A stretch of 39,677 nucleotides of DNA, from NCBI GenBank assembly GCA_020073105.1, contig JAIQFW010000052.1, forward strand, positions 1 through 39,677, written 5' to 3'. Under the pieces are notes generated by a model. That model worked only from the letters and a program-made list of their open reading frames with translations. It was not told where the DNA came from and did no database searches. Positions within the stretch are counted from its first letter, which is position 1. Each line of letters starts with the position of its first letter. Below are positions 20,378 to 29,282 of the stretch, piece by piece. The stretch is from Terriglobia bacterium (GTDB lineage Bacteria > Acidobacteriota > Terriglobia > Terriglobales > Acidobacteriaceae). A program made the position numbers and the translations under genes.

Positions 20378-20505
20378 CCGTTTCTTCCTATCGCGCACAA
20401 ACTCTCTGGCCTAAGATGACCTCGCAGTTGGGTTCTGTTGAATTCTCATCCGGAGGGGCCTTCAGGCCTCGAAGGACCCATGCATTGGGAATCGTTGAGA
20501 AAGCA

Positions 20506-20550
20506 GCCGCCTAGCGGCGTCATGTGACAGCCCGGCACGGAAGTGCCGGG
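20506..20550. repeat. Composite hairpin element
   Basis: GCCGC (20506-20510) / GCGGC (20514-20518) with loop CTA, then CCCGGCAC (20531-20538) / GTGCCGGG (20543-20550) with loop GGAA. It occupies the gap between the AraC and VOC genes. The second hairpin resembles the GGCACGG hairpin at 37841-37860. Confidence 0.6.
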
Positions 20551-25962: not shown

Positions 25963-26595
25963 CTACTGCCCTCCGGTGGTTACCGGTGCCATCTCCAGCG
26001 GGCGGCTCAATTCCATCACCAGCTCTGTGCCTGAGGGAAGCACGGCTGAATTCTTCTTGCCCAGCCAGTGGGCCACGGTGGCGGTTGCGCCAATCGCTCC
26101 GCCGATTAGCAGGCCCTTGCCCCCACCGGCCAGACCGCCGATCAGCATCCCACCGCCTGTGCCCATCCCGATTTCGGTCAGGTCCTTGCCGTCATGCCCT
26201 TTGCCCTTGAACTGACCCTCCTCGTTCACATCGGTGCCGTTCCGCAGGCTGGTATCCACCAGGCTGGCGTTCAGCATGAACCGGTCGCCGTTGGGCATGA
26301 TCAGCGTCTCGGGGAAAATGCCGATGGTGGGTTTGCCCGAGACTCGGCGTGGTTCGCTCACCTGCGTCACCCGGCCTTGCACCGTGGCCCCGATGGGGAT
26401 GACAGCCTTGCCGTCAAGCATTACAGCTTCAGTTACTCTGCCGGAAAACGGATCGCCGGTCTTGCTGGAGAAAGTGGCCAGGGTGCTGTCCAGCTTGACC
26501 TTCAGGGTCGTGCCCGTCGGCAAGGAAACATTGTTTTGCGCTATCGCTGCAGCCGATAACACAATCACACCAAGCAACACTGCTAACTTCTTCAT
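25963..26595 (-). CDS. Exported protein with TrbI/VirB10-like beta domain and glycine-zipper
   Basis: 210 residues with a clean signal peptide (MKKLAVLLGVIVLSAAAIAQ). The mature part starts LPTGTTLKVKLDSTLATFSS, then GDPFSGRVTEAV and AVIPIGATVQGRVTQV, the pattern of TrbI/VirB10 C-terminal beta domains. The middle has a Gly-rich membrane-like zipper (GMGTGGGMLIGGLAGGGKG). Near the end a second strand pair LPSGTELVMELSRPL repeats the first. Such proteins sit in the periplasm or outer membrane; no conjugation genes are near. Its AGGAGG ribosome site (26601-26606) lies inside the end of the upstream selenoprotein gene and its ATG is one base after that gene's TGA, so the two are tightly coupled. 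Confidence 0.75.
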   Translation of the reverse strand: MKKLAVLLGVIVLSAAAIAQNNVSLPTGTTLKVKLDSTLATFSSKTGDPFSGRVTEAVMLDGKAVIPIGATVQGRVTQVSEPRRVSGKPTIGIFPETLIMPNGDRFMLNASLVDTSLRNGTDVNEEGQFKGKGHDGKDLTEIGMGTGGGMLIGGLAGGGKGLLIGGAIGATATVAHWLGKKNSAVLPSGTELVMELSRPLEMAPVTTGGQ

Positions 26596-26596
26596 T

Positions 26597-27115
26597 TCAG
26601 CCTCCTGAGGTCTCTGGATTTTCCAACTTCTTCGCGACTTCCAAAACTGCTTCCAGGGGAATCCGGTCGGTCTGGGACGCTCCCCGGTAGATGAACCGTA
26701 CCGTCCCGGTTCGGTCGATCAGCAACGTCGCTGGATGCGCGATGTTGAAGGCATCGTGCCCGATGCGGTGATAGAGTCCATACGCCTTCGTGACAGTGCG
26801 GTCTTCATCCAACAAGAACGGAAATGACACCGGATGCTCCGTCAGGAACTTGGCCGGTTTGAACATGCCTTCGCGTTTCTCGGCAGCGATAAATACCGCC
26901 TGCAGTCCAACCTGACTGATTTCGTTCTTCAACGACTCAAACTGAGCCATGCGTTTCACGCAATTGGGTCACCACGTCCCGCGCAGGAAGTCCAAAATGA
27001 TCGGTCCCCTGGACAGTAAACCGCTGAGGGAAAACACCCCCTCTCGATTGGCCGCTGAGAGTGAAAAATCCGGCGCCCGCGAGCCAATGCCCAGAGTTTC
27101 GGTGACATTTTGCAT
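26597..27115 (-). CDS. Peroxiredoxin-like (AhpC/TSA) protein with in-frame TGA read as selenocysteine
   Basis: Read from ATG 27115 to the final TGA at 26599-26597 there are 172 codons. Codon 49 is TGA (26971-26969). Before it stands GSRAPDFSLSAANREGVFSL ... IILDFLRGTW, and after it PNCVKRMAQFESLKNEI, then PVSFPFLLDEDRTVTKAYGLY and HPATLLIDRTGTVRFIYRG. This is one unbroken AhpC/TSA thioredoxin-fold protein of normal length with no frame change. The TGA falls exactly on the first Cys of a W-C-x-x-C active site, giving U49-P-N-C52. A stem-loop follows at the expected distance. Sec at the redox position would make a reactive thiol-peroxidase-like enzyme. Alternatives are a nonsense mutation or restart at GTG 26959, but a restart would lose the active site. 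No Sec machinery gene is in the window. Confidence 0.88.
26932..26950 (-). promoter_or_regulatory. Candidate bacterial SECIS element
   Basis: On the transcript strand an 8-base stem ATGGCTCA / TGAGTCGT (two G-U type pairs) closes a GUU loop. The loop begins 26 bases after the recoded TGA. Bacterial SECIS elements lie just downstream of the UGA inside the coding region and carry a G or GU in a small apical loop, which fits. A second, closer hairpin (TGCGT-GAA-ACGCA, 26961-26949 on the minus strand) overlaps it and may compete. Confidence 0.65.
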
Positions 27116-27285: not shown

Positions 27286-28602
<1,317 letters not shown>

Positions 28603-28671: not shown

Positions 28672-28902
28672 ATGGAAGTCAACATCCACGAGGCCAAGAC
28701 CCATCTCTCGCGCTTGCTGGAACGGGTTGCGATGGGGGAAGAGGTGGTTATTGCGAAGGCGGGCAAGCCGGTGGCGAAACTGGTGGCCGTCGAAAAGCAC
28801 CCCAAAAAACGAATCCTCGGATCAGCGAAGGGCGAGTTCGTAGTACCCGACGATTTCAACGATCCACTGCCTAAAGAGATCGAGGACCTGTTCTGGCAAT
28901 GA
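28672..28902 (+). CDS. Antitoxin of the Phd/YefM (VapB-like) family
   Basis: 76 residues. The N-terminal DNA-binding fold reads VNIHEAKTHLSRLLERVAMGEEVVIAKAGKPVAKLVAV, the classical Phd/YefM signature. The acidic C-terminus (VVPDDFNDPLPKEIEDLFWQ) is the usual toxin-wrapping tail. Its stop overlaps the toxin start by ATGA. Like its family it should neutralise the toxin and repress the operon, probably through the palindrome in its promoter. Confidence 0.93.
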   Translation: MEVNIHEAKTHLSRLLERVAMGEEVVIAKAGKPVAKLVAVEKHPKKRILGSAKGEFVVPDDFNDPLPKEIEDLFWQ

Positions 28903-29282
28903 AGGCGCTCCTCGACACTCACACTTTCTTGTGGGCGATTGCAAACGACCCAAAGCTATCCCGCCGGGCGCAGCAGCTTTTCATCGGCCCCAGTGATCTT
29001 TCCTTCAGCGTGGCCAGTATCTGGGAGATCGTGACCAAATCGCAGACCGGCAGACTGGATCTACCGAAGCCCGTTGGTCCGTATGTGGTGAAGAAACTGG
29101 CGGAGAATAGGATTGGAGTGTTGCCTTTAGGGTTGGATCACGTTTTGCGGCTCGAAAGCTTAAGCCTTCATCACCGCGATCCGTTTGATCGCATTCTCAT
29201 TGCGCAGAGCCTGGAGGAGGGCCTGCCGTTGGTGACGGCTGATCCCCTGTTTGACCGGTATCCGATCCAGGTGATTTGGTAA
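28899..29282 (+). CDS. PIN-domain toxin (VapC-like ribonuclease)
   Basis: 127 residues of PIN domain. The acidic active-site residues are Asp6 (LLDTHTFLWA), Glu near 44 (SIWEIVTKSQTGRL), Asp near 94 (HHRDPFDRILIAQSL) and a final Asp in VTADPLFDRY. All are present, so the metal-dependent RNase should be functional. Typical VapC toxins cut initiator tRNA or rRNA. Translation is coupled to the antitoxin by a four-base overlap. Confidence 0.93.
   Translation: MKALLDTHTFLWAIANDPKLSRRAQQLFIGPSDLSFSVASIWEIVTKSQTGRLDLPKPVGPYVVKKLAENRIGVLPLGLDHVLRLESLSLHHRDPFDRILIAQSLEEGLPLVTADPLFDRYPIQVIW

Follow-up and report, generated by a model that had tools for sequence, protein, structure and literature searches.

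The window (the whole stretch of DNA that we analyzed, 39,677 nucleotides) is contig 21 of the genome of an uncultured acidobacterium (5.14 Mb, 308 contigs, 97.6% complete). On its reverse strand, a frame of 172 residues runs from an ATG at 27115 to the stop codon TGA at 26599-26597, and as the original prediction had stated, it is interrupted only by a single TGA at codon 49 (26971-26969). Another in-frame TGA lies two codons 5' of the ATG, which leaves no room for an earlier start. The translation around codon 49 reads RGTW-U-PNC, where U is the predicted selenocysteine (Sec). This is a UxxC motif (U49-P-N-C52), and TxxU is absent from the site. If we put Cys at position 49, then the best match in Pfam is Redoxin (PF08534; 80.5 bits, residues 11-156), and AhpC-TSA also matches (PF00578; 76.6 bits vs. 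a cut-off of 26, residues 10-141). Both matches are far above their cut-offs and extend across codon 49, which bears out the claim that the AhpC/TSA sequence is coherent on both sides of the TGA. A mechanical ORF call finds only a 120-residue ORF on the reverse strand (26959-26597) that begins with GTG just past C52. This truncated protein, which the original prediction had anticipated, lacks both U49 and C52 and hence the active site. It is all that such a call yields, and reading the TGA as Sec mends that.

The next ORF downstream (25963-26595, reverse strand) starts just 1 nt past the stop of the putative selenoprotein gene, and the two are probably in one operon. It encodes a 210-residue protein with no match in Pfam. 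By eye, this conserved protein has an apparent signal peptide and a Gly-rich segment. On the other side is a divergent gene for enolase (27310-28602, forward strand; identified with Pfam and tblastn), which is a conserved marker of synteny. Using tblastn, we looked for both neighbors at 31 loci (L030-L060). Enolase was matched at 19 of the 31, and the downstream ORF was also matched at 19 of 31 (or at 18 of 30 distinct places, as L052 and L030 are one place). Elsewhere in the window are a VapC-like protein with a PIN domain (28899-29282, forward strand; PF01850) and an Acido-Lenti-1 RNA (20505-20550, reverse strand; RF01687, 43 bits), which belongs to a described RNA family. At the gathering score, the Acido-Lenti-1 RNA was the sole Rfam match in the window, with no match to SECIS, and ARAGORN found no tRNA in the window.

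Is the TGA conserved? A search of genome contigs identified 24 loci with relatives of the gene, of which 21 are from Acidobacteriota (L039-L059); this and the Acido-Lenti-1 RNA place the window in that phylum. Codon 49 is TGA in 20 of these 21 relatives (19 that align at codon 49, and L058, where a frameshift has put the TGA out of frame), and it is TGC (Cys) in L057. In L058, the TGA and the motif are intact and the frameshift comes soon after, which might be an assembly error or decay. Among the three relatives from outside the Acidobacteriota, L060 (from Desulfobulbaceae) has TGA, and L061 and L062, which are short and distant matches, have Cys codons. Across 60 genomes of Desulfobulbaceae, we found no copy of the family except for L060 itself.

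We also searched 396 genomes of Acidobacteriota. A search with a single sequence (E ≤ 1e-25) found the gene in 10 genomes, and all of these have TGA. A profile search (E ≤ 1e-20) found the family in 28 genomes, with TGA at codon 49 in 24 of them, TGC in three (L082, L084, and L085), and TGT in one (L089). The same TGA is at the same place in relatives that are as little as 36-42% identical, and dozens of genomes, with copies that are 36-73% identical, combine the TGA with an intact frame after it. Within the family, Cys codons (in L057, L082, L084, L085, and L089) are the sole alternative to TGA, which agrees with the prediction that the TGA stands in place of an active-site Cys. The source genome's own paralogs (L002-L007) are more distant redox proteins with Cys or Thr at this site; for example, L007 has Thr and is a standard peroxiredoxin. 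We also searched plasmids and obtained 17 records, all below 60% identity. Of the best 8 of these 17 (31.7-34% identity), 5 are annotated as ResA, 1 is annotated as peroxiredoxin-like, and 2 are nameless.

Just beyond the TGA is a predicted bacterial SECIS (bSECIS) hairpin at 26950-26932 on the reverse strand, ATGGCTCA-GTT-TGAGTCGT, with an 8-bp stem and an apical loop of GUU. In the published form of the bSECIS element, as described in PMC13188914, the loop has 3-9 nt with a G within its first two positions, the upper stem has 4-16 bp, the distance from the UGA to the loop is 16-37 nt, and the minimum folding energy is at most -7.5 kcal/mol. The hairpin in the window fits this form: the loop (GTT) is 26 nt from the TGA, and the folding energy is -12.4 kcal/mol (for a stretch of 49 nt). 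The minimum-energy fold retains just 4 bp of the stem, and the energy is ordinary (z = -1.5, with 16 of 200 shuffled sequences folding equally well). We compared 43 rows with TGA to 13 control rows without it (paralogs, Cys-containing relatives, and distant matches). A stem of at least 5 bp in the SECIS geometry was present in 40 of 43 TGA rows and in 6 of 13 controls, or for at least 4 bp, in 42 of 43 and 9 of 13. By itself, the SECIS geometry is not very specific. When codons were shuffled, 26 of the 43 TGA rows reached the 5% level, as against 1 of the 13 controls, which was the Cys paralog L002, with an 8-bp stem. Among Cys-containing family members, a stem of this kind is missing from L057, L082, and L085, and is 4 bp long in L084 and 5 bp long in L089. 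In L082, L084, and L085 (where no SelA was found), there is an AGCTC-like palindrome where the relatives with Sec have their stems, which might be a relic or might be due to chance.

The strongest signal of the hairpin is codon choice. The Ala that is 8 codons past the TGA is encoded by GCT in 22 of 26 genes, vs. 53 of the 472 other Ala codons of these genes, and the Glu at +11 is encoded by GAG in 25 of 25, vs. a background of 128 of 252; these counts come from related genes and are not independent. Overall, there is strong evidence for synonymous constraint in the stem. In an alignment of 26 close genes, 90.1% of cells in a 7-bp stem pair, as compared to 24-47% if the partner is slid, and double-sided covariation is seen in just two cells. 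This alignment left out L037, L038, and L060, which have 0-2 of 5 pairs when read in the close clade's register; each of these has a stem elsewhere. A C-A mismatch interrupts the stem in both L043 and L045, and the stem of L079 is weak.

If the TGA is read as Sec, then selA, selB, selC (tRNA-Sec), and selD should be present elsewhere in the genome, as the original prediction had pointed out, and we found all four. There is one full-length selA (551 bits). SelD (348 bits; L025, on contig 206 of the source genome, G000) has a TGA of its own, in G-U-A-S-K, so it is predicted to be a selenoprotein itself. The tRNA-Sec scores 68.7 bits, and ARAGORN gives its anticodon as tca. Because three other tRNAs in this genome also exceed the cut-off for the tRNA-Sec family (at 47.6-53 bits), we relied on the 68.7-bit score together with ARAGORN to identify it. 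selB is in two pieces, which score 197 and 103 bits: positions 1-155 of the model match at the end of contig 215, and positions 211-578 match near the end of contig 110. Each piece's best match is TIGR00475, and neither exceeds the curated cut-off alone, as expected for a gene that was broken by the assembly; no single intact selB was seen.

The gene also tends to occur with SelA. Among 19 chosen genomes, SelA was above the cut-off in all 15 with a TGA copy, and no SelA was above the cut-off in the genome with the Cys-encoding L057 (G446) or in the three genomes that lack the gene. More broadly, SelA was found in 22 of the 24 genomes of Acidobacteriota with TGA and in 250 of all 396 sampled. 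This is a moderate excess (P is about 0.002 by a binomial test that assumes independent genomes, which they are not). The two TGA genomes without a detected SelA are G137 (with L078; 75% complete) and G196 (with L088; 91% complete, in 650 contigs), and perhaps SelA is missing because these assemblies are incomplete. Of the four genomes with Cys instead, only G170 has SelA.

A tree of 53 rows places the window's protein in a clade of 33 rows (support 96/87), which comprises 32 sequences with Sec and a single nested sequence with Cys, L057. Seven sequences from other Acidobacteriota, with motifs such as RGTW-U-PYC, form a branch that is separate from the supported RGTW-U-PNC clade. At deeper levels of the family, mapping Sec onto the tree takes 4 changes, and the tree includes some long branches. 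L057 is next to an enolase (79% identical), and the window's downstream ORF is partly matched there as well (at 38% over 110 residues), so L057 is very probably an ortholog. Since it is syntenic and comes from a genome in which no SelA was found, it amounts to a natural experiment. The simplest explanation, with the direction of change taken from the tree, is that Cys replaced Sec in L057 after the Sec system was lost.

The TGA is conserved, the hairpin is constrained, the genome encodes the Sec machinery, SelA tends to co-occur, and an ortholog has Cys; from these comparisons, we believe that the gene at 26597-27115 almost certainly encodes a selenoprotein. We weighed several other explanations for the TGA. 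It could be a nonsense mutation in a pseudogene or else a misread TGC or TGT. In-frame TGA codons from a fragmented assembly are always open to such doubts, and the frame of one relative (L058) is indeed broken, but given that the same TGA recurs in dozens of genomes with the frame intact after it, and that the hairpin is under synonymous constraint, this is extremely unlikely. A sequencing error, in particular, could not recur at the same codon in dozens of independent genomes. It is similarly hard to believe that the UGA specifies one of the ordinary amino acids, due to a variant genetic code or to read-through by a near-cognate tRNA. The frame is open if TGA is a sense codon, but TGA ends this very gene as well as 2 of the 6 other named genes in the window that we checked (GH57 and DinB). 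Also, the hairpin and the Sec pathway are present, and the only alternatives at the site are Cys codons. We give just as little credence to there being two genes, for a 48-residue peptide and for the 120-residue protein from GTG 26959. The mechanical ORF call does give this arrangement, but one Pfam domain covers both pieces, a start at the GTG would strip off the conserved active site, and the predicted structure is one continuous fold with high confidence (pLDDT 89.3 and pTM 0.87, from an alignment of 14 rows). On these grounds, we rejected all of these other explanations for the TGA.

A different kind of alternative accepts the selenoprotein but makes it a physiological peroxidase, with C52 as the peroxidatic Cys (as in Bcp/PrxQ) and with Sec49 as the resolving residue or as an additional residue that attacks peroxide. 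According to Foldseek, the best match to the predicted structure is a Bcp-type peroxiredoxin (Bcp4; TM 0.83 by query), and 48 of the best 50 matches (702 pass E ≤ 0.001) are to proteins of the peroxiredoxin type. When the sequence is aligned to 2cx3, C52 falls on the Cys of S-x-x-C, which is the peroxidatic position. Also, Sec is well suited to peroxide chemistry. On the other hand, U49 falls on the Ser of that motif, so it replaces the Thr/Ser of the canonical peroxiredoxin site, Pxxx(T/S)xxC/U, and the invariant P128 falls on an Arg of 2cx3 (in one pairwise alignment only). We take both this Arg and the Thr/Ser at the position of U49 to be catalytic in peroxiredoxins. Pro at the position equivalent to P128 is typical of thioredoxin-type proteins. 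These two replacements favor thioredoxin-like catalysis over the classical peroxiredoxin mechanism. Furthermore, ResA-type oxidoreductases match the protein's sequence about as well as peroxiredoxins do (E = 2.4e-9 vs. 1.6e-9 for the best peroxiredoxin). The original description of the protein as peroxiredoxin-like was right about the fold, but the residue at position 49 is not that of peroxiredoxins. We consider a peroxidase to be possible but rather doubtful, and selenol-disulfide oxidoreduction seems somewhat more probable than not to be the protein's chemistry.

For the selenoprotein with disulfide chemistry, we infer the actual insertion of Sec as well as the protein's location, substrate, reductant, and direction of reaction. 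Translation would begin at ATG 27115. At the UGA of codon 49, SelB would recognize the hairpin within the gene, just 3' of the UGA, and would bring tRNA-Sec so that the ribosome inserts Sec; without selenium, translation would halt after 48 residues. The product would be a probably cytosolic protein of 172 residues with the peroxiredoxin fold and with a redox pair, Sec49-Pro-Asn-Cys52, at the start of the helix at 50-61. In a reaction like that of thioredoxin or ResA, Sec49 would attack a disulfide (or a peroxide), the resulting bond would resolve to a selenenylsulfide between Sec49 and Cys52, and a thioredoxin-type donor would reduce the selenenylsulfide.

Selenoproteins of this general kind are already known. 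A report on the Sargasso Sea described UxxC "Prx-like" selenoproteins as distant homologs of peroxiredoxins with a thioredoxin-like UxxC motif (PMC1088965). Publications on them date back to 2005-2006 (PMC1088965, PMC1794560), and they are listed in a catalog from 2026 (Table 1 of PMC13188914). Thus, of the claim that this is a new selenoprotein, what holds is that the RGTW-U-PNC gene is a new member or subclade, and not a new kind. We found no description of the acidobacterial RGTW-U-PNC clade among the titles and abstract openings listed for open-licence articles in PMC, which is no real proof of absence. Table 2 of PMC1794560 gives 4 selenoproteins in 3 families for Acidobacteria. The gene adds a well-supported Sec clade to this phylum, on whose selenoproteins the papers that we consulted say little.

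As the catalog describes them, the Prx-like thiol:disulfide oxidoreductase selenoproteins (PF00578, UxxC or UxxU; for example, WP_010940744.1 in PMC13188914) have several features in common with the window's gene: the PF00578 domain, UxxC rather than TxxU, a SECIS-like hairpin downstream, and homologs with Cys. We matched WP_010940744.1 by its description only, and the window's RGTW-U-PNC clade branches apart from the RGTW-U-PYC type. Another entry in Table 1 of PMC13188914, a "Redoxin family protein" (HEU0032618.1), has PF08534 and UxxC in common with the window's protein and was also likened by description only. Sec-peroxiredoxins (TxxU) have the peroxiredoxin fold as well, but in the window's protein, Sec is at the position of the Thr, and the peroxidatic position, three residues farther on, is still a Cys. 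The Cys-containing ResA-type thiol-disulfide oxidoreductases have the W-C/U-x-x-C motif and match residues 11-114 of the window's protein; unlike them, the window's protein has Sec in place of Cys, and Foldseek ranks mainly peroxiredoxins ahead of them.

More speculatively, the gene may represent a distinct, Sec-dominated subfamily in Acidobacteriota (with RGTW-U-PNC, and adjacent to enolase among the window's relatives). In this subfamily, Sec would be ancestral and Cys a rare and late replacement; the proteins would use a peroxiredoxin scaffold for selenol-disulfide reduction, and the gene would be among those that maintain the Sec trait in the family of the window's organism. We put forward this combination only tentatively. 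The RGTW-U-PNC gene is not the general reason for the Sec trait in the phylum, since only 22 of the 250 genomes with SelA have a TGA member of the family at the threshold that we used. Within the family of the window's organism, 5 of the 9 sampled genomes with SelA carry the TGA gene.
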